Part shown: in pieces, positions 16,301 to 30,568 of the stretch
How positions within the stretch are numbered: the first letter of the stretch is position 1
Layout: every line of letters starts with the position of its first letter
IMG/VR virus record: IMGVR_UViG_3300028802_000043
Location: 1 to 37,575 of that record
Source of the DNA: a virus
Length of the DNA: 37,575 bases
Direction: 5' to 3' (one strand)
Notes under the pieces: generated by a model
What the model was told of the DNA's origin: nothing
The model's input: only the letters and a program-made list of their open reading frames with translations
Databases searched by the model: none
Translations under genes and position numbers: made by a program

Positions 16301-16442
16301 GAACGTTGATACGCATGGGTCGTGCCAGCCGTCAAGAGCACACTGGCACGCTTGCACATTGATACGCTTGCACGGGTGCTCACGTATCGGCGTGCTGGCG
16401 TGCAAGCTTGCTCATGAGCACATGGGCAAGCGTGCCACCGTG
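16301..16442 (-). repeat. GTGC/GCAC word-repeat region A
   Basis: This gap between the MuF and DUF2213 genes is filled with short overlapping words: GGCACGCTTGCAC (16345-16357), GATACGCTTGCAC, GGCGTGCAAGC, CTCATGAGCAC and GGGCAAGCGTGCC. GCAC/GTGC tetramers recur about every 8-10 nt in both orientations. The same vocabulary is found upstream of other genes in the window. No promoter was obvious. The stretch is open in the frame of the following gene but lacks coding character. Confidence 0.75.
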
Positions 16443-20746: not shown

Positions 20747-22180
20747 TTATACGTCCGACTGCGGCGGCGGCTCGGCGTCGGGATCCGCATTCGGATCGGG
20801 CGGCTGCGGCGGATTCAGCAACGCCTCGGCGTGCACGTCCGCTTGTTCCTCCTGCAGCTGCTTGCGTTGCTCGACGTCGATCACGGGGAAGTCAGGAGCC
20901 AGCCCGATCGCGGCCTCCGACTCGGTCACGATCTGCGCGCCGACCAGCGCTACATACGTGTCGGCCTTGACCTTGTTCGTGTCCGCGAGCTCTTTATCCG
21001 TGGGCTGCCACAGAGGGTGAAATTCAATGCACCAGCGCTCGGGTAGCTTGCCGCGTGTCGGGCCATCCTTCGCGAGAAACATCAGCGTCAGCAATCGCAT
21101 CAGCCGTGGCTCAAGCACGTCTGTCTGCGCGTCCGCTACCGTGTCGTACCATCCGCGAATGTCGCTTTCGCCGGTCGCATTGAGGCCCGCGGGGCTGCGG
21201 CCGTAAAGCAGCGTGACGGGCATTTCGGCGGCTGACGCAACGCGCGTCATGAGCTTGTCCAGCACTTCGGGCAGCCCAGCGAACGAAGTAGCGATCCGCT
21301 CGAATGACTCTTTTTCAGCGTCGACCAGGATCGCGCGCGCGGTCGAGCGGCCCATGTCGAGCGCTTGCATACGCGCCGTCAACACCTCGGATCGACCGGC
21401 TGCGATCAGGTCGATCAAGTTTTGGATCTTGAAAACGCCTTGCGCGGCATCGGTCATCAAGTGCGCCGTCGACTGCCAACCCGTCGCCGACTGCTGCAGC
21501 GCGGAATACACAGACTGCAAGACCGAATCATCCCACTCGTTCGTGCTGGGCTGCGTGGTGCGGGCCGTGAGCACGCCGTCGAACAAGATCAAGCGGCTCA
21601 CGTGCACGTCGACGCTCAAGCCAATCCGGCTGATGCCGCTGATCACGCCGCTCTGATAGATCGTGATCACCTCGGGCTTGCCGTAGTCGGGCTTGGTCAC
21701 GTCGACGAATCGCGACTTGACCACCAGCTGCGGCCGCTTGATCACGTTGACGAATGAGACGGATCGGATCGCCGCTTCGTTCAGCGGCTCGTGTGGCTCG
21801 CGGCCGTCGTCTGCGCCGACGAAAAGCCCCGACCCGCCGCCGTATAGCCGGGCCCATGTCCAGCCGTCACGTAGCGCCGTGTCCGCCCCGATCTTGCGTA
21901 GCGCGTCGTGGAGCTCGCGCTCGACGTCCGCGCCGCTGTCGTCGTCGTCTTCGGCCTCGAGCTCGACACGAAACCCGCGGCGCATGGCCTCACGCGGCAG
22001 CTTGGACACGATGCGCCTAGCCGTGTCGTCTTCATTGAAGAGAGTTTCAAGCGAGCCGTCGCCGAGCTTTTCGCCGGGCGTGACTTTGGCGTAGGTGAGC
22101 TTATCGCGGGCCGTGCCGAGGCCCGTCACGACGTTCATCCACCCGTCGAGCCGATCGACCGTGCCGCCGTCGCTGCTCAT
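20747..22180 (-). CDS. Portal protein (DUF1073/Phage_portal family)
   Basis: 477 residues from ATG at 22180 (MSSDGGTVDRLDGWMNVVTG). The frame is open upstream through repeat DNA, which is unlikely to be coding. It shows the DUF1073 portal pattern: NEDDTARRIVSKLPREAMRR (residues ~48-67), RDGWTWARLYGGGSGLFVGA and VHVSRLILFDG. The late stretch EMPVTLLYGRSPAGLNATGE, then DIRGWYDTVADAQTDVLEPR, is strongly typical of this family. The portal forms the dodecameric ring through which DNA is packaged and to which MuF and adaptor proteins bind. The acidic Pro-rich C-terminus is variable. Confidence 0.9.
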   Translation of the reverse strand: MSSDGGTVDRLDGWMNVVTGLGTARDKLTYAKVTPGEKLGDGSLETLFNEDDTARRIVSKLPREAMRRGFRVELEAEDDDDSGADVERELHDALRKIGADTALRDGWTWARLYGGGSGLFVGADDGREPHEPLNEAAIRSVSFVNVIKRPQLVVKSRFVDVTKPDYGKPEVITIYQSGVISGISRIGLSVDVHVSRLILFDGVLTARTTQPSTNEWDDSVLQSVYSALQQSATGWQSTAHLMTDAAQGVFKIQNLIDLIAAGRSEVLTARMQALDMGRSTARAILVDAEKESFERIATSFAGLPEVLDKLMTRVASAAEMPVTLLYGRSPAGLNATGESDIRGWYDTVADAQTDVLEPRLMRLLTLMFLAKDGPTRGKLPERWCIEFHPLWQPTDKELADTNKVKADTYVALVGAQIVTESEAAIGLAPDFPVIDVEQRKQLQEEQADVHAEALLNPPQPPDPNADPDAEPPPQSDV

Positions 22181-22238
22181 GTGCTCATGTCTCCGCGTGC
22201 AAGCGTGCCAATGTGCAAGCTTGCACGCCTGCACGGTA
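22181..22238 (-). repeat. GTGC/GCAC word-repeat region C
   Basis: The 58-nt gap directly upstream of the portal ATG contains GTGCTCATG, CGTGCAAGCGTGCCAATG and TGCAAGCTTGCACGCCTGC. TGCAAGCTTGCA is a perfect 12-bp palindrome. GTGCAAGCGTGCC is the reverse complement of GGCACGCTTGCAC in regions A and D2. No separate promoter can be recognised. Confidence 0.75.
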
Positions 22239-22832
22239 TCACGGACGGGCGGCCGTCGCTGCTAGGTCCACAAGCCAGCGTGCGAGCTCGAGCGGCGTGC
22301 GGCGGCGTTGCCTGACCGAGCAGACCTTGATGCCGGGCGGCACGGTTTGCCCGCCCTTGTTGCCCCTGCGGCCTCGACGACCGGACGCCCAATGCGTGGG
22401 CTCGCCACCCGTGCGACGGCTCGACTCGACCAAGCGCCGATCGATGCCGACGAAATACAGCCACGTACGCTTGCGCGCCACGTGCCCCCACGACACCTGA
22501 TCGATCGCGATCGCGTAGCCGCCCCACGCATCGGGCAGACCTTCCGGTAGCGGCAACCTGCAACGCGTCCACAGTTGCGATTGCGCGGGGTGCTCGAGGA
22601 TCCCGCCGCACTGCCGTACCTGGTGCACGGCTCGCACCGCGCAAAACGGATCATCACCGCGCGACAAGTGCCGCAGCCGCCCCCACGGCCCGCACGGCGG
22701 ATGCGCGACCACGGGCAGCGGGCCACGGTAGCCGCACGCGTCGCGCTCCGCGGGCCAGCTGTCCACGTCAGGCATGCGGGCATAGACGCCGCGCGGATCG
22801 GTGTAGAGCACCGCTACGCGTGCAGCTGTCAT
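22239..22832 (-). CDS. Conserved phage protein with HPPC motif (possible DNA-modification relative)
   Basis: 197 residues from ATG at 22832 (MTAARVAVLYTDPRGVYARM). The central segment LPVVAHPPCGPWGRLRHLSR (PPC at residues 45-47), CGGILEHPAQSQLW and VSWGHVARKRTWLYFVGID recurs in many phage genomes. The PPC-x-x-W/F pattern resembles the catalytic loop of cytosine-C5 methyltransferases, but a recognisable SAM-binding FxGxG motif is missing. A derived methyltransferase-like fold or a DNA-binding role are open possibilities. The 134-nt stretch upstream (22833-22966) holds no gene and only a partial repeat. Confidence 0.75.
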   Translation of the reverse strand: MTAARVAVLYTDPRGVYARMPDVDSWPAERDACGYRGPLPVVAHPPCGPWGRLRHLSRGDDPFCAVRAVHQVRQCGGILEHPAQSQLWTRCRLPLPEGLPDAWGGYAIAIDQVSWGHVARKRTWLYFVGIDRRLVESSRRTGGEPTHWASGRRGRRGNKGGQTVPPGIKVCSVRQRRRTPLELARWLVDLAATAARP

Positions 22833-22966
22833 AGCGCCGGCTCTAAGGCTGGCCGGCCCGCCCCGCTGTCTACGCCGGGCACTGCTGATCTTCCCGACGC
22901 TGGGCAGGAGCACAGAGGACCGCTAACACAGGTCGTGCTGCTCATTGGCGCGGCTTCCCTTCCAAG
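22833..22966. other. Short intergenic stretch with partial word repeat
   Basis: 134 nt between the Acb2-like and HPPC genes. The only notable element is CGTGCTGCTCATTGGCGC (22934-22951), which resembles GTGCTCATTGGCAC in region B. No ORF or hairpin of note was seen. Confidence 0.4.
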
Positions 22967-23242
22967 TCACTTCCCGAGCGCAGCCCGCACCGCTGCGTCT
23001 TTCCCCTCGAGCAGCTTGCGGAGCGCGACCGTGCGCTCTGCGCAGCGCGGCAAGTGGTCAACGATGAACTCGGCCAACACCGCGAACTGCGCCGACACCG
23101 TGCGCAGTGGGGGCGGCAGATGGCTGTAGCTGAAATACTGCAGGATCGGCTCGTAAGCTGCGGCGGGCGGTTCGGGGGGCGCGTAGGGCAGCGCTCCGAC
23201 GTCGGCGCCCGTGATCGTCTGTAGCTCTTTTTCGTCTGACAT
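22967..23242 (-). CDS. Acb2/Tad1-type hairpin protein, candidate anti-CBASS/anti-Thoeris sponge
   Basis: 91 residues, ATG at 23242 preceded by AAAGGA. After a disordered N-terminus (1-30) the protein reads EPILQYFSYSHLPPPLRTVS (31-50), then FAVLAEFIVDHLP and ERTVALRKLLEGKDAAVRAA (69-88). This two-helix pattern, with HLP, S-x-x-F, LP-x(3)-ERT-x-AL-x-KL-x-E-x-KD, is the Acb2/Tad1 hairpin family (former DUF7681). Characterised members are hexameric proteins that bind cyclic oligonucleotides or gcADPR and so silence CBASS or Thoeris defence. Identity rests on motif recall. Ligand specificity cannot be read from the sequence. Confidence 0.8.
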   Translation of the reverse strand: MSDEKELQTITGADVGALPYAPPEPPAAAYEPILQYFSYSHLPPPLRTVSAQFAVLAEFIVDHLPRCAERTVALRKLLEGKDAAVRAALGK

Positions 23243-23306
23243 ACGGTGTCCTTTGCTCATGTTTACGGGTGCACTCCGGCACGCTTGCACACTGGCACGT
23301 GTGCAG
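23243..23306 (-). repeat. GTGC/GCAC word-repeat region D2
   Basis: 64 nt upstream of the Acb2-like gene, containing GCTCATG, GGGTGCACTCCGGCACGCTTG and GCACACTGGCACGTGTGCAG. GCACGCTTGCAC (23279-23290) is identical to copies in regions A and F. The ribosome binding site AAAGGA lies at the gene-proximal end, so the repeat ends just before it. Confidence 0.75.
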
Positions 23307-23666
23307 TCACCGCCCGTCTAGGTGCTCGCGCGCGTACTTGTCCAGCTCGTCGCGCAGCGCCTCGGACATCTTGGTCGAGTCAATCTGTATCGGCTTGTTG
23401 CACGCGTTCGACGGGCTGCGCGCCCGCTCGATCAGCCCGAACAAGTCGCCGTTGCTAAACTCGCTGGGCGCGTACTTTAGGAGGCAATACAGCAGCACGC
23501 GCGCCCGCTCGTCGTCGGGCAGCGGCTCGAGTGCCTCAACCAGCGGGGCGAACTCTTCTATGCGTGGCCACGGCGTAAGCTCCTGCAGATCCTTCCCATC
23601 GCCCGGCATCGCAACCGGCTCACCTCCGAGCGCTTCGCACATTTGTTTGTGTGTGTGGACCGTCAT
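23307..23666 (-). CDS. Unknown protein downstream of terminase
   Basis: 119 residues. ATG at 23666 overlaps the terminase stop (ATGA), implying coupled translation. It is acidic and helical (WPRIEEFAPLVEALEPLPDD, ERARVLLYCLLKYAPSEFSN), with a predicted helix at the end (MSEALRDELDKYAREHL). No domain was recognised. The pairing with TerL suggests a packaging-related or small regulatory role, but this is only contextual. Confidence 0.7.
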   Translation of the reverse strand: MTVHTHKQMCEALGGEPVAMPGDGKDLQELTPWPRIEEFAPLVEALEPLPDDERARVLLYCLLKYAPSEFSNGDLFGLIERARSPSNACNKPIQIDSTKMSEALRDELDKYAREHLDGR

Positions 23667-25078
23667 GTGTGCATTTCCTTCGCCAGCAGTGCCATCGCAT
23701 CCTGGTACACGCGCACGCCCGCCTTACTGATCGCCATGAACGCACGGCTGCACGCGTCGGTGATGTCTTTGTGCCGGCCGTCCGGAAACGACTCGAGCTC
23801 CGACAAGAGAGCCTCGTTCCACGGGCCTTGCAACACGTCGACGTTGCCGGCCTCGACCTGCGTGCTGAACGGGCCCGCATACACGAGCTTGTCTTCGCGC
23901 GCGACTTCCGACTCGACCCAATAGCCGCTCAAAAACGACTTGGTCAACGCCACGTCGACCTTGCCGGCCTGCGCGGGGTCTTGCCATATGCAGATCTTCA
24001 CGCCGATCCCATCCTGCGCGGCGGTGTTCAACATCGCTTGCAACACCTGTGCGGGGCTGCCGCGCAGCGACTCGAGGTGCAAGATCACGATCCGCCCGCC
24101 GCGCGTGATTCCCATCTTGACCCCGCGCGTCCACGCCGGATCGGGATTCTCGATGCTGGGCTGCGTCGCGGCCTTATCCCACGCCCGCACGATCTGCACG
24201 AAGTCGGTAGGCGGCGCTGCGATCGTGCGAAACCAGGCTCGGCGGAAGTACAGGCCCGCAGCCGGGCGGATCGCCCAATTGCCGCCCTGCCCTTTGCCTA
24301 GCAGCCGCTCGCGCTCGACCATGGGTAGCGACATGAGCCGCGCGCGGTAGCCCGGATCGATCTGCAGTAAGATCTTGTTGTCTGACAGTCTGCCCAAAAT
24401 GAACGTAAACGACGTCGGCGCCACGCCTTGATCGGGGAACTGCTCGACTAGCTCTTCCGGCGTCTTCCCCCAATGGATCGTGTCGCCGATGCGATAGAAG
24501 TAGCGCACCACGCCCGAGCGCTCGGGCCGCGCGTACTCGCCGCGCTTGTCGAGCCACCACTTGATCATGGTCTTGACCCAGCTGTCCGGATCGGGATTCA
24601 TCGTAGCGCGTATGTAAGACTTGACGCCGCTAGTTGAACGACAGCGCGAGTACAGATACCAAAACTGCCCCTCGGTAAAGTGTGTGAGCTCGTCGAAACC
24701 GATAAACGAGTAGCCCTTCCCCTGGTGCGCGGTCTTCGACGTCTCATACTGCAAGTGTCCTAGCTGCACCGTCGCGCCGCTCGGGAAGGTCGCCAGATAC
24801 ATGGGCGATTCGGTGCAACGCGCGCCAAGCCGCGGATACCATTCTTTGACGAGCTCCCACAGCGAGCCGGGACCGATGAGCTGCGGCGACGTGCGGCGGA
24901 ATATGATCCCGCCGCTGCGTGGCACGTCGTGGCACCGTAGCCCCTCGAGCACGAGGCCGGCCGTCTTGCTCGAGCCGGCCTCGCCCCCATAAAACACGAT
25001 GTCAGCCGACGACGCTAGGAATCGCTCTTGCGATCCGGGTTGCGGGCCGATGCGTGTGACGGGGGCTAGGGCGGTCAT
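23663..25078 (-). CDS. terL: Terminase large subunit
   Basis: 471 residues from ATG at 25078, whose A is the last base of the upstream stop (TGATG). The ATPase domain has an unusual Walker A, GGEAGSSKT (31-39), a Walker B with catalytic Glu, YSFIGFDE (123-130), and the coupling motif RATMNPDPDSW. The nuclease domain starts at about 290: IVRAWDKAATQ (D301), then late acidic positions ICIWQDPA (D367) and FPDGRHKDITDAC (D433-D441). It cuts concatemeric DNA and drives it into the prohead. Both domains are intact and the length is in the normal range. Confidence 0.93.
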   Translation of the reverse strand: MTALAPVTRIGPQPGSQERFLASSADIVFYGGEAGSSKTAGLVLEGLRCHDVPRSGGIIFRRTSPQLIGPGSLWELVKEWYPRLGARCTESPMYLATFPSGATVQLGHLQYETSKTAHQGKGYSFIGFDELTHFTEGQFWYLYSRCRSTSGVKSYIRATMNPDPDSWVKTMIKWWLDKRGEYARPERSGVVRYFYRIGDTIHWGKTPEELVEQFPDQGVAPTSFTFILGRLSDNKILLQIDPGYRARLMSLPMVERERLLGKGQGGNWAIRPAAGLYFRRAWFRTIAAPPTDFVQIVRAWDKAATQPSIENPDPAWTRGVKMGITRGGRIVILHLESLRGSPAQVLQAMLNTAAQDGIGVKICIWQDPAQAGKVDVALTKSFLSGYWVESEVAREDKLVYAGPFSTQVEAGNVDVLQGPWNEALLSELESFPDGRHKDITDACSRAFMAISKAGVRVYQDAMALLAKEMHT

Positions 25079-25539
25079 CAGTGCATGTCCGGGGTTCGAC
25101 CATTTCGCTTCACCTCGGTTGTATATTCCTGACGCATTTCCTGGACTATCGCGCGAAAGTCTCGCGGCAGCGTGCGCAGATATACGCGGGACGCATCCAC
25201 AATATCGGGCCATTCTGGCACTGGCTGACGGGTGCCTTTCTCAGTGCGAGAACACGCAAGCAATGCGCTGCTGAAGCAGCTCTCGCTTTCGTCAGCAGTG
25301 CGTAAACCAGCATGCCTTTGCAGAAGACCCAGGATCGCGACGTCAACAACGGCTCGCAGATCTCGTTTCGTCCGCGCGTCCGCATGCGCCGTCGCAGCAA
25401 ACTCACGACCCAGCAACGTCCGGGCCTTTTGGGTTATGGCCAAAAGCTCATGCAGCAGATCACGCGCAGATGCATCCGCACGCTTTCTCACTGGCACCTT
25501 GGCACGCTTTCTCACTGGCACCTTGGCACGCTTGCTCAC
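25078..25539 (-). CDS. Unknown basic protein between terminase genes, with repeated N-terminus
   Basis: 153 residues, GTG start at 25539 overlapping the upstream stop (GTGA). The N-terminal ~20 residues are two copies of an eight-residue basic unit (KRAKVPVR, twice) followed by KRADASARD, encoded by a perfect 24-bp tandem repeat. The rest is helical: LLHELLAITQKARTLLGREF, then VAILGLLQRHAGL and PEWPDIVDASRVYL. No family was recognised. The basic head could bind DNA. Its position between the two terminase genes suggests a packaging accessory role. Confidence 0.7.
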   Translation of the reverse strand: MSKRAKVPVRKRAKVPVRKRADASARDLLHELLAITQKARTLLGREFAATAHADARTKRDLRAVVDVAILGLLQRHAGLRTADESESCFSSALLACSRTEKGTRQPVPEWPDIVDASRVYLRTLPRDFRAIVQEMRQEYTTEVKRNGRTPDMH

Positions 25540-26523: not shown

Positions 26524-27045
26524 CTACCCCTCCCCTAGCTTGTGCCTGTAAACCACGTCCCGCGGTCGATTCGGCCGCGGCTCGCGCACCTCACCACGCG
26601 CACGAGCTCGTGCCACGTAGACCGTCTCACACGCCGTCCACGCTTTGTCGGTCCACTCGTAGTGCGACCCCTTGCGTATGTGCCGCAAGCACTCGGCGTA
26701 GTGCCCCTCGAGCAGCGGCGTGTCGCGCCGCAGACATAAGTCGCGCAACCAGGCTAGCGCTAGCGGCGATTCGTCCACGTGGAAGGTGAACTCGAGTGCA
26801 AGCGCGTCCGGATAGGGAGTCGCTAGCGTGTTCGACCGAGGCCAGCGCAGACTAAACCGCTCGACCTGCGCGCGGATCGTCTTGCTCTCATACGAATACC
26901 AATGAAACCCGAGCGAGCGACACCACGGCTTGTCTAGGGCCCACACCACGGCGTTTTGACTGCGCCACACGACGGCGTCTTGCTGACCTGCCGCCCGCAG
27001 CAGCTCGACGAAATCACGGTGTAGCGTTTCCGGTGTCGTCGTCAT
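26524..27045 (-). CDS. Unknown protein downstream of ParB-methyltransferase
   Basis: 173 residues. ATG at 27045 overlaps the methyltransferase stop (ATGA), which decides the start. Trp, His and Arg are frequent (VVWRSQNAVVWALDKPWCRS, LGFHWYSYESKTIRAQVERF), followed by ALEFTFHVDESPLALAWLRD and GHYAECLRHIRKGSHYEWTD. The ending is basic. No domain was recognised. The coupling to the methyltransferase makes a DNA-modification accessory role possible but unproven. Confidence 0.72.
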   Translation of the reverse strand: MTTTPETLHRDFVELLRAAGQQDAVVWRSQNAVVWALDKPWCRSLGFHWYSYESKTIRAQVERFSLRWPRSNTLATPYPDALALEFTFHVDESPLALAWLRDLCLRRDTPLLEGHYAECLRHIRKGSHYEWTDKAWTACETVYVARARARGEVREPRPNRPRDVVYRHKLGEG

Positions 27046-28292
27046 GGCGTCGCCGTTTGCCGCTGCGCCTTGTGTCCCGTGACGCGTTGCCAGCGCTCTA
27101 CGATCACGTCGCAGTATGCCGGCGAGATCTCGATCGCGACGCACGTGCGGTCGAGTTGCTCTGCGGCGATCAGCGTCGTGCCGCTACCGCAAAACGGGTC
27201 GTAGACGACGTCGCCGGCCTTGCCGTGGTTGCGGATCGGGCGGGCCATGCATTCGATCGGCTTTTGCGCCGAGTGCGTGGTTTCGTCGGTCGGGTCGGTC
27301 GGGCGATTCGAGATGTCCCACACGGTCGACTGCGTGTGATCGCCTGCCCACCGTGCGGAGTGGCCCTCACGCACGGCGTACCAGCAGCATTCATGTTGCC
27401 AGTGGTAGTGACCGCGGCCGACTGCGGCTTGCTGCTTTTTCCATACGATCTGCGCGCGCACGCGCATCGGCACAGCTAGCAGGTCGCTCGCTGTGATCAC
27501 CGTCGCGGCACCCTTTCCGCCGTGCCACACATAGGCAACTACGCCGCTAAATAGCTTGTATGCCTCGAGCCATGAGACGCGGTCGTCGTTTGGAATATCG
27601 CCCGAACGCTTATCCCGCCCTTGCCGATCGGGATTTCTCACGGTGCCGTTGCCGTTCGGAAGCGCGCCCGGCTCGTTCCGCCACGCCGGATCGTACTGCA
27701 CGCCATACGGCGGATCCGTGACCATGATAAACGGCTCCAGCTTGGCGCGCGCGAGCTGCACCACCTTCGGATCCGTCGCATCCCCGCACACGAGCCGATG
27801 CCGCCCGAGCAGCCACAGATCGCCCGGCTGCGTGACTGGTACTGCGGGCGGCTCCGGCGCGTCGTCGTCGGCTAGGTCGCCATTCGACCTGATCAGCCGC
27901 TCCATTTCGCGCAGGTCTTTGTCGCCCCAACCGGCGAGCATTTGATCGCCCAAATCATACGAGCGCAGCAGGTCGTGCAGTTCGGGCGTATCCCATTCGG
28001 CGAGCTCGCCGAGCCGGTTATCCGCGAGTGCCAAGAGGTGCGCTTCGCGCTCCGACAAATCGACGAATCGCACCGGCACGCGGTCGAGCTTGAGCGACTG
28101 CGCGGCCTTCCATCGGGTGTGCCCGGCGATGATCTCGCGCGTCTCGAGGCGAGCGACGATCGGCGATGCGAAGCCGAAACGCTTGATGCTTTCGGCGACC
28201 TTTACAACAGGTTCCCCGTCATTTTTCCTCGGGTTTTTGGCCCACGGCTTGAGTGTGGACGGATCGACCCATTCGGCGGCGGCATCAGTCAT
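27042..28292 (-). CDS. ParB-like nuclease domain fused to beta-class DNA methyltransferase
   Basis: 416 residues, ATG at 28292 with AAGGGA as ribosome binding site, overlapping the upstream gene by 8 nt. Residues ~8-90 form a ParB/Srx-like domain (LKPWAKNPRKNDGEPV, REIIAGHTRWKAAQSLKLD). The methyltransferase part has motif IV DPPY at 193-196 and motif I DPFCGSGTT at 365-373. This DPPY-before-FxGxG order defines beta-class amino-methyltransferases (N6-adenine or N4-cytosine). Such fusions are frequent in phages and protect DNA from host restriction or mark it for regulation. Both motifs are intact. The target sequence is unknown. Confidence 0.9.
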   Translation of the reverse strand: MTDAAAEWVDPSTLKPWAKNPRKNDGEPVVKVAESIKRFGFASPIVARLETREIIAGHTRWKAAQSLKLDRVPVRFVDLSEREAHLLALADNRLGELAEWDTPELHDLLRSYDLGDQMLAGWGDKDLREMERLIRSNGDLADDDAPEPPAVPVTQPGDLWLLGRHRLVCGDATDPKVVQLARAKLEPFIMVTDPPYGVQYDPAWRNEPGALPNGNGTVRNPDRQGRDKRSGDIPNDDRVSWLEAYKLFSGVVAYVWHGGKGAATVITASDLLAVPMRVRAQIVWKKQQAAVGRGHYHWQHECCWYAVREGHSARWAGDHTQSTVWDISNRPTDPTDETTHSAQKPIECMARPIRNHGKAGDVVYDPFCGSGTTLIAAEQLDRTCVAIEISPAYCDVIVERWQRVTGHKAQRQTATP

Positions 28293-28527
28293 CGTTGTTT
28301 CCCTTGTCAATGAACACTCGGATCCGGCCGCTATCGTCTGTCAGGTCTGCGACAGCTCTTTTGACTTCCGCCGCGAGCACCAGCACCGCCGCAGCGGTAT
28401 ACAAGCCCGCTCGCATCAGCGGCTCGGGATGCGGCGACTTTTCGCCCACCCGCTCGCGACTAAGCAGATACCTCAAGGTCTCATCGAAGCGGGCGAGCAC
28501 GACGCCGATCACCTTTCCCTCAGCCAT
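28285..28527 (-). CDS. Small unknown protein
   Basis: 80 residues, ATG at 28527. It contains VIGVVLARFDETLRYLLSRE, then LMRAGLYTAAAVLVLAAEVK (a moderately hydrophobic helix) and an acidic end (FIDKGNNDD). A membrane association is possible but the segment is short and flanked by charges. Its end overlaps the methyltransferase start by 8 nt, so it is part of the same operon. Confidence 0.62.
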   Translation of the reverse strand: MAEGKVIGVVLARFDETLRYLLSRERVGEKSPHPEPLMRAGLYTAAAVLVLAAEVKRAVADLTDDSGRIRVFIDKGNNDD

Positions 28528-28560: not shown

Positions 28561-28890
28561 TCATGTATTCGCTCCGCTTTTCCGCCCCACACGTCGTTTA
28601 CGCACGTTGCGCCGCGCTTCACCTAAAGCCCGCCGACACGCGGTGTCCCGATCAACGTGAAACCCTGCCCCGTGCCACTCATCCCCGCGCCACACGTACG
28701 CGATCCAGTGATCGCCGTCGTGCCACGACGCGAGCCGCCACGGCCCGCCCGCAGCCGTCCGCGGCACAGGCTCGCCGAAAATGAACATGCACCACGCGTC
28801 GGCTAGGTGGTGCCGCCACATAGCGATCCGTTTACGCGCGAGCATCACGCGCAGCGGGCTGACGCGGATCATCGCGAGCACTAGCCCCAC
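28561..28890 (-). CDS. Unknown basic protein
   Basis: 109 residues. The GTG at 28890 overlaps the upstream stop by 10 nt. The sequence has a helical N-terminus (SPLRVMLARKRIAMWRHHLA), a compact Trp-rich beta region (GGPWRLASWHDGDHWIAYVW, DEWHGAGFHVDR) and an Arg-rich helix at the end. No family was recognised. The 33 nt that follow before the next gene hold no recognised element. Confidence 0.62.
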   Translation of the reverse strand: MGLVLAMIRVSPLRVMLARKRIAMWRHHLADAWCMFIFGEPVPRTAAGGPWRLASWHDGDHWIAYVWRGDEWHGAGFHVDRDTACRRALGEARRNVRKRRVGRKSGANT

Positions 28891-30332
28891 GACTCAACCT
28901 CAACCATCCGCTCGCCGCGTGGCGCGTCTTCCGGCGCGTCCGCAGGCCGCAGCACGATCTCGAGCGCCACATAATCATTCTTCGGCGACGTCGTGCCCCG
29001 GTTCGACTTGCCAAACGACGGCCGCTTTTTTAGCCGTACTTCGCGCGTCGTCTGCGCCACTTGCCACAGCGTTTTGTAACGGTTTTGACCGTGCAGGATC
29101 GACGCCTTGAATATCCCGCACACGCGCCGCGCCATCGTGAGTGCGTGCAAAATGAAATCTTCTGCTTGCCCATCTTCGTACGGTGGATTCATCAAACACA
29201 AATCGAACATCGTGCCGCCGTCCGGCAGCCCGCCGTGCCGGAAGTCGCCGCAGTGCGCCGTGATAACCAGGCCGGCCGGCACTTGCCGATCGCGGCACAC
29301 TTTGGCGAGCCGCTTCACGTTGACGACGTCGATATCCACGCACGTGATCGCCTTGCACCCGCGCGGGTCAGCCAGGATCGGCACGATCAGCGCACCTTCC
29401 CCCGACGACGGCTCGAGTACCGTCTCGGGCCGATCCTTGCGGCTTGCCCACTCCCACAGCTGCGCGGCGAGCCAAGGCGGCGTGTACCACTGCGACCAAA
29501 GATCGCGCTTTTGCGCGGCTTCCAGCGTAATTTCTCGCTCTAGCTTCCGCACGGGGCTGCTCATGAGCACGCTTGCACCTGTGCTCACTGGCACGCTTGC
29601 AAGCGTGTCGGCTTGCACGCTGGCATCCGTGCTCATGACATCATTGGCAGCTCGAGCGGCACCGCTCGAGTCGTCGCCGGCTCCGATTTGCTGCGCTGCA
29701 GCGCCTAAAGCCTCGCCGACTTCGGGCGCGCGTTCAGCCCACAGCCCGATCAAGATCGCCGCCGACTCATCCGCCGCGCACTTTTCACCGACGATCCGCG
29801 CGGCGAGTTCCTGCTCTGCGGCGCGTATGTCGTCGCGCTGCATACGCACGTACGCGGGCCCAAGCACGAAGCGACGCCAGCGCGACGGCATGATCGGCAC
29901 GGTGCGCTTTTCTGACATGCCGGCCGCTCGCCACGCGGAGAGCCAGCGCTCGCGCGCGGCCCCAAGCGCGAGCAGCATTTCGCGGCCGCCGCCGTAGGGC
30001 GCCTCGAGCACGAGCACCAGATCGAGGCCCCCTGACTCTTGCTCCGCCCAGCGCACTATGTGCGCGACGGCTTCACCGTCCCGCGTGTCGACTTCCCCGA
30101 AAGCGGACTGAACGCCCCCCACGCGGAAAGACCAGCCCGACCGCGCCGCCGTGTCCACGGCCAGCACGGCACAGCGCCACGGCCGCGCGGCATAGCCCCG
30201 CCGCTGCACGAGCTGGGCCCGTGTCGGCTCGCGACGGCGTTTCCGCCCCGACCCACGCACGACGACTGCGCTAGCCGTACGGCGGCGTCTAGGGGCCTTA
30301 TTCAGACTTGGTTGCTTGTCGTTTATTCGCAT
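28881..30332 (-). CDS. RuvC-like resolvase domain fused to adenine DNA methyltransferase
   Basis: 483 residues, ATG at 30332, two bases after the upstream stop. After a basic head, residues ~52-210 form an RNase H/RuvC-like domain with CAVLAVDTAARSGWSF (D60), LVLVLEAP (E110) and KCAADESAAILIG (D188, E189), the acidic triad pattern of Holliday junction resolvases. Residues ~265-483 form a gamma-type adenine methyltransferase: YTPPWLAAQLWEWA, motif I EPSSGEGAL (307-315) and motif IV NPPYEDG (382-388). The linker (232-257) is translated word-repeat DNA, and the methyltransferase could start separately at the in-frame ATG (residue 257). Fusion or two overlapping products are both possible. Confidence 0.85.
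   Translation of the reverse strand: MRINDKQPSLNKAPRRRRTASAVVVRGSGRKRRREPTRAQLVQRRGYAARPWRCAVLAVDTAARSGWSFRVGGVQSAFGEVDTRDGEAVAHIVRWAEQESGGLDLVLVLEAPYGGGREMLLALGAARERWLSAWRAAGMSEKRTVPIMPSRWRRFVLGPAYVRMQRDDIRAAEQELAARIVGEKCAADESAAILIGLWAERAPEVGEALGAAAQQIGAGDDSSGAARAANDVMSTDASVQADTLASVPVSTGASVLMSSPVRKLEREITLEAAQKRDLWSQWYTPPWLAAQLWEWASRKDRPETVLEPSSGEGALIVPILADPRGCKAITCVDIDVVNVKRLAKVCRDRQVPAGLVITAHCGDFRHGGLPDGGTMFDLCLMNPPYEDGQAEDFILHALTMARRVCGIFKASILHGQNRYKTLWQVAQTTREVRLKKRPSFGKSNRGTTSPKNDYVALEIVLRPADAPEDAPRGERMVEVESWG
29561..29640 (-). repeat. GTGC/GCAC word-repeat region F inside a coding sequence
   Basis: The segment contains CTCATGAGCACGCTTGCACC (GCACGCTTGCAC at 29567-29578), GTGCTCACTGGCACGCTTGC, AAGCGTGTCGGCTTGCACGC and GTGCTCATGA, the vocabulary of the intergenic regions A-E and G. 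Here it has no stop codon and is read as MSTDASVQADTLASVPVSTG-ASV, the linker between the RuvC-like and methyltransferase domains. The ATG of MSSPVRKLE sits at its end, as repeats elsewhere end at a gene start. Confidence 0.85.
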
Positions 30333-30334
30333 AG

Positions 30335-30568
30335 CTAAAACAGCCTGGTCTGTCGCGGATCTGCCGTGCCCTCGAGTCGAGCCAGATCGGGAAGTGCCTT
30401 GAGTTCCTCGGGCGTGAAATCTGCTTTCGCGTACCAAGCGCGCCCGGTCTGCGCGTGTGTGCGGCAGCTCAAGCACCACACGCCGACGTGAAAACCACCG
30501 TCGAACGTGTGCCGGTAGTAACGCGTTGCGCCGCGATTGCAGCGCTGGCAGGCCGGTGCATCAGGCAT
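30335..30568 (-). CDS. Small Cys4 zinc-ribbon-like protein
   Basis: 77 residues, ATG at 30568 with a strong AAAGGA ribosome binding site. Two Cys pairs, CQRC and CLSC (residues ~6-9 and ~32-35), flank a Tyr/His-rich beta region (RYYRHTFDGGFHVGVW), which suggests a zinc ribbon. The second half is acidic and helical (DFTPEELKALPDLARLEG). A longer open frame upstream is mostly repeat DNA and was not used as the start. Nucleic-acid binding is likely, the function unknown. Confidence 0.72.
   Translation of the reverse strand: MPDAPACQRCNRGATRYYRHTFDGGFHVGVWCLSCRTHAQTGRAWYAKADFTPEELKALPDLARLEGTADPRQTRLF

Follow-up and report, generated by a model that had tools for sequence, protein, structure and literature searches.

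A probable divergent member of the Acb2/Tad1 hairpin superfamily carried as accessory cargo between phage terminase and portal genes

The analysis concerned a small gene located between the terminase and portal genes in a stretch of 37,575 nucleotides of viral DNA (IMG/VR record IMGVR_UViG_3300028802_000043, positions 1 to 37,575), indicated as a whole in the following as the window. It probably codes for a divergent protein of the Acb2/Tad1 hairpin superfamily which would sequester a nucleotide immune signal, and would serve the phage as exchangeable cargo for counter-defence, lodged between terminase and portal. Other loci are indicated by L numbers.

The hairpin gene and its genomic context

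The 91-residue gene, given without a strand in a preliminary description made from the sequence, is located on the minus strand and is a real one: the open reading frame translates, homologues are found and the core is under purifying selection. The translated product of window:22967-23242:-, 91 aa in length, is MSDEKELQTITGADVGALPYAPPEPPAAAYEPILQYFSYSHLPPPLRTVSAQFAVLAEFIVDHLPRCAERTVALRKLLEGKDAAVRAALGK, and it contains the hairpin motifs (HLP, then ERTVALRKLLEGKD) which had been quoted for it. The ribosome binding site ascribed to the gene was also found, and is a good one. Comparison with PHROG assigned the protein to families 1761 (E=1e-21) and 5120 (E=1.2e-17), neither annotated with a function. 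The relevant features of the window, with the evidence used for each, are the following.

22967..23242, minus strand: hairpin protein gene (91 aa); translation, homologues, PHROG matches, purifying selection
22976..23152, minus strand: hairpin core, residues 31-89; AlphaFold2 and alignment of relatives
23174..23242, minus strand: N-terminal leader, predicted disordered; tblastn of the leader, low pLDDT of residues 1-30
23249..23254, minus strand: ribosome binding site AAAGGA, 6 nt 5' of the ATG; upstream sequence
22239..22913, minus strand: HPPC gene, second of a two-gene cassette; phrog_12600, with no function annotated
22198..22234, no strand: left arm of a 37-nt inverted repeat, 78% complementary; repeat search
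23269..23305, no strand: right arm of the 37-nt inverted repeat; repeat search
20747..22234, minus strand: portal protein, which borders slot B downstream; phrog_146, E=4.2e-101
23663..25213, minus strand: terminase large subunit, which borders slot B upstream; phrog_979, E=1.9e-143
23307..23666, minus strand: 119-aa accessory gene, found together with the hairpin gene in close relatives
26524..27144, minus strand: slot A gene, with no known function; the slot holds a RyR gene in L034 and L040 and a hairpin gene in L004

The hairpin and HPPC genes are flanked by those for the terminase large subunit and the portal protein, and are enclosed as a two-gene cassette by the 37-nt inverted arms. Read along the coding strand, the hairpin gene has the GTGCAAGCGTGC repeat region upstream and the HPPC gene downstream, in agreement with the arrangement previously described. 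The repeat core GTGCAAGCGTGC was matched 13 times in the window, versus 0.66 matches expected. Repeats of this type are present at several mostly intergenic sites between positions 16346 and 29602 of the window, and are possibly regulatory or recombination sites.

The HPPC gene is missing from L264 and L002. Its product contains, in addition to the HPPC motif, a GGILEHP motif, reminiscent of cytosine methyltransferases. Two genes resembling DNA methyltransferases are located at 27042-28310 and 28881-30479 of the window, the first of them fused to a ParB N-terminal domain. The slot A gene at 26524-27144 is conserved in L264, and other relatives carry RyR or hairpin genes in its place; it is a candidate for a further counter-defence gene.

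Homologues and sequence conservation

Homologues of the hairpin protein were detected at 35 IMG/VR loci, including L034 and L035, which match the leader only, and in 299 INPHARED records of cultured phages; matches were mostly confined to residues 31-89. Carriers of the PHROG 1761/5120 family include phages of Vibrio, Erwinia, Acinetobacter, Brevibacterium and Gordonia, among others. Distant homologues are located in lysis, nucleotide-metabolism and other regions. In Vibrio phage martha 12B12 the hairpin gene lies immediately ahead of the portal gene.

The hairpin core is under strong purifying selection, with pN between 0.03 and 0.11 versus pS between 0.29 and 0.53 in close relatives. Residues F37, A57, E69, L74, R75, K76, L77, L78, E79, K81, D82, A83, A84 and R86 are invariant in 27 relatives. 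In some phages the core is preceded by a further N-terminal domain: P-loop-like in Erwinia phage 2910A (Ea2910A; L142:2246-2680), zinc-finger-like in Ochrobactrum phage OH (L146:765-1133) and of unknown type in Gordonia phage Clawz (L144:2267-2779).

Relationship to PF24729 and Acb2

As a single sequence, the window protein matched neither PF24729 nor any other Pfam, NCBIfam or PDB-chain entry. Its best relatives scored 19-20 bits against PF24729 and missed the gathering score of 27 bits; 11 of 23 diverse relatives nevertheless matched the model in register, under its cut-off, with a best E of 3.6e-4. None of the 396 genomes examined from the Kocuria phylum contained a PF24729 match at the cut-off. 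Positions 15-50 of the family profile aligned in register with positions 15-50 of the 'Acb2 homolog 43' chain (PDB 9ptq), at an E of only 0.28, not significant alone.

For a comparison at profile level, a set of 80 mainstream PF24729 loci was fetched by using as a probe a consensus, which served for fetching only. The three mainstream members tested scored 85-91 bits against PF24729, and a PaMx33-type Acb2 (L061) scored 66 bits. HHalign related the window family to the mainstream set with a probability of 86% (E=4.6e-6) and a score of 32.2, versus a maximum of 14.6 in 60 column shuffles. Likewise, all 68 non-redundant mainstream sequences scored above the best of 340 shuffles with the HMMER model of the window family (median 15.9 bits, versus 6.5 for the best shuffle). 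With the mainstream model, in turn, the window protein reached 8.9 bits (best shuffle 5.1).

Direct comparison of the window family with PaMx33-type Acb2 was negative, both by HHalign (probability 0.16%) and by HMMER, where none of 80 Acb2 sequences rose above the shuffles. Taken alone this result is misleading and a bridge is needed, since the mainstream PF24729 set does reach Acb2 (51 of 80 above all shuffles): the window family is thus two steps away from characterised Acb2. That the window protein belongs to the Acb2/Tad1 hairpin superfamily, as a distant branch of it, is well supported. The family assignment made in the preliminary description therefore holds as profile-level homology to mainstream PF24729, but not as a single-sequence match to PF24729 or the PDB, nor as direct similarity to PaMx33 Acb2.

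Predicted structure

The AlphaFold2 model of the window protein has a mean pLDDT of 82.8, with blocks over residues 31-90 at 94-98. It consists of a short helix at 32-37 followed by two long ones, antiparallel to each other (44-63 and 68-89), and preceded by residues 1-30 of low pLDDT, so that the leader is predicted to be disordered; no strands are present in the model, and hence no Tad1-like N-terminal beta-sheet. The Acb2 protomer has a similar make-up, in which a short helix is combined with two long antiparallel ones (PMC12043709).

When the model was compared with the BFVD viral models by using Foldseek, the named matches beyond its own family were mainly annotated as 'Acb2/Tad1 hairpin domain-containing protein', with probabilities of 0.7-1.0. 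The same search against the PDB gave no match for the window model. This silence carries no weight, because the model of a true PF24729 protein, used as control, was equally silent. For L029, the PDB yielded only MHC structures, which were judged to be chance matches.

RyR-domain proteins and the common leader

Sister phages encode RyR-domain proteins, similar to RyDEP, at the following positions; a single open reading frame in a further locus unites the two signal-handling modules.

L034:1766-2227: RyR-domain (RyDEP-like) protein
L040:4720-5181: RyR-domain (RyDEP-like) protein
L041:4319-4723: RyR-domain (RyDEP-like) protein
L042:5022-5432: RyR-domain (RyDEP-like) protein
L023:4007-4567: hairpin-RyR fusion

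Phage RyR proteins degrade or sequester the cADPR signals of Thoeris (PMC13232231), and those of the sister phages are candidate Thoeris counter-defence genes. The H-x2-W-x21-H spacing of the RyR ligand residues (H75, W78, H100) is preserved in L034, L041, L042 and L023. In L034 and L040 the RyR-domain protein (PF02026, E=2.3e-7) occupies slot A, and the L004 phage has a RyR gene immediately after the portal gene. The search for a RyR gene in the window was negative.

Two of the four RyR proteins, those of L034 and L040, carry the hairpin leader: in a tblastn search, their residues 1-26 were found to equal the leader of the L002 hairpin protein except at two residues. At the DNA level the two leaders differ by nine synonymous and two nonsynonymous changes, and the leader thus appears to be conserved as protein. 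The end of L034 is identical to the start of L001 over 88 bases, and both derive from one sample; very probably, therefore, one phage has both a RyR gene in slot A and a hairpin gene in slot B, each with the leader.

A general association between hairpin and RyR genes was looked for and not seen, RyR being present in none of 31 other hairpin records versus one of 50 background records. Co-occurrence is thus confined to this lineage, and only local slot sharing, the common leader and one fusion are claimed. No further hairpin-RyR fusion was found in the four cultured-phage records examined.

Conserved residues and the putative pocket

Acb2 and mainstream PF24729 proteins have in common a tyrosine, a K/R 15 residues further on, an arginine ahead of the last helix and a threonine inside it. 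The ligand contacts of Acb2 are presumably Y11, K26 and R67. At the four common positions, the profile alignment places Y39, S50, A68 and R75 of the window protein, where the loop after Y39 is four residues shorter. Only the aromatic residue is kept, so that the positions common to Acb2 and PF24729 are mostly not conserved. A different polar set, made up of E69, R75, K76, E79, K81, D82 and R86, is invariant in the window family. Since the common residues are mostly replaced by this new invariant set, the ligand may differ. The range of ligands known for Acb2 or Tad1 should not be ascribed to the window protein.

The same replacement would also fit a protein which has kept the hairpin fold but changed its function and binds no nucleotide signal; it could, for example, inhibit a host protein or serve as a module for oligomerisation or as an adaptor. 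The variety of domains fused to the core, zinc-finger-like in OH, P-loop-like at the N-terminus in Ea2910A and RyR in L023, points in the same direction. A change of function of this kind is nonetheless unlikely: the invariant polar set would exceed the needs of an oligomerisation core, and both the fusion and the slot exchange involve a signal-binding domain.

Accessory slots in the head module

In nine related IMG/VR contigs with a homologous terminase, the terminase and portal genes are adjacent or overlapping, slot B being devoid of a hairpin gene; none was found elsewhere in the nine records, several of which are fragments. Slot B is also empty in Rhizobium phage RHph_TM3_3_3, with a like arrangement of the terminase and portal genes, and is occupied by the hairpin gene in L264 and L271. 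In L004 the hairpin gene is located in slot A instead, with a ParB-methyltransferase gene on one side and the gene for the small terminase on the other. These observations support the hairpin gene as accessory cargo within the head module, and bear out its earlier description as an insert in the structural operon. A counter-defence role for it is likely, as judged from the combined analysis.

The location of the gene, between terminase and portal here and directly before the portal in Vibrio phage martha 12B12, could also indicate an accessory protein of the virion or of packaging, such as a portal or terminase cofactor, whose likeness to the hairpin would reflect a generic helical fold. Helical hairpins are a common fold, and the PDB search with Foldseek was silent. 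Such a role is quite improbable, however, considering that the nine contigs and RHph_TM3_3_3 lack the gene at this place, that it is shifted to slot A in L004, that its distant homologues are spread over lysis, nucleotide-metabolism and other regions, that PHROG indicates no head function and that the true PF24729 control was just as silent.

Proposed role

That the protein would act as a canonical Acb2 or Tad1, with their known range of ligands (cyclic oligonucleotides or gcADPR), as originally proposed, is improbable, since the similar predicted protomer layout and the superfamily-level homology are offset by the missing direct similarity to PaMx33-type Acb2, the changed common residues and a model with no Tad1-like N-terminal beta-sheet.

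For the favoured reading, a divergent superfamily member acting as counter-defence cargo, we infer that the protein oligomerises and binds a ligand, as well as which ligand this would be and when the gene would be expressed. The hairpin protein would most probably assemble into an oligomer, which would sequester a nucleotide immune signal produced by a host defence of the CBASS or Thoeris kind, or by a similar one; with the signal sequestered, the abortive-infection effector would stay off. Expression late as well as early, as previously suggested, may be surmised from the position of the gene.

An extension of this reading can be offered tentatively. The approximately 300 cultured-phage records may represent a large, unnamed hairpin branch, whose pocket would have been remodelled for a different nucleotide immune signal and which, in this lineage, would work as one of a pair with a RyR-domain protein behind a common tag. 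This N-terminal tag, conserved at protein level, could direct hairpin and RyR proteins to one location, perhaps the virion.

The analysis ties a widespread but unannotated phage family (PHROG 1761/5120) to a superfamily of signal sponges, and reveals sponge-like and RyR signal-inactivating modules which share slots and a leader inside the head module. If ligand binding proves true, a counter-defence gene could be proposed in hundreds of cultured phages, with the changed residues predicting a new signal specificity.

Comparison with known systems

Mainstream PF24729 'YHPP' proteins (L184 and others) share with the window protein the two-helix hairpin and an in-register lA...P...E(k/r)(s/t).A..KL.E motif. 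The window protein differs from them by a shorter loop after the aromatic residue, by a score below the Pfam cut-off and by S, A and R in place of the R, R and T which they have in common with Acb2. Acb2 (PaMx33 gp24, PDB 8h2j/8ixz; T4 Vs.4, PDB 7uq2) is likewise a small phage protein, active as a homohexamer in the PaMx33 type, and the same helix layout is predicted for the window protein, which lacks detectable direct sequence-profile similarity to the PaMx33 type. Tad1 has a C-terminal two-helix element assigned to the same Pfam domain, but carries an N-terminal beta-sheet where the N-terminus of the window protein is predicted to be disordered. RyDEP-type RyR proteins (PF02026) contain an unrelated domain, none being encoded in the window, but resemble the hairpin protein in occupying an accessory slot in sister phages, in carrying the same leader and in being fused to the hairpin in L023.
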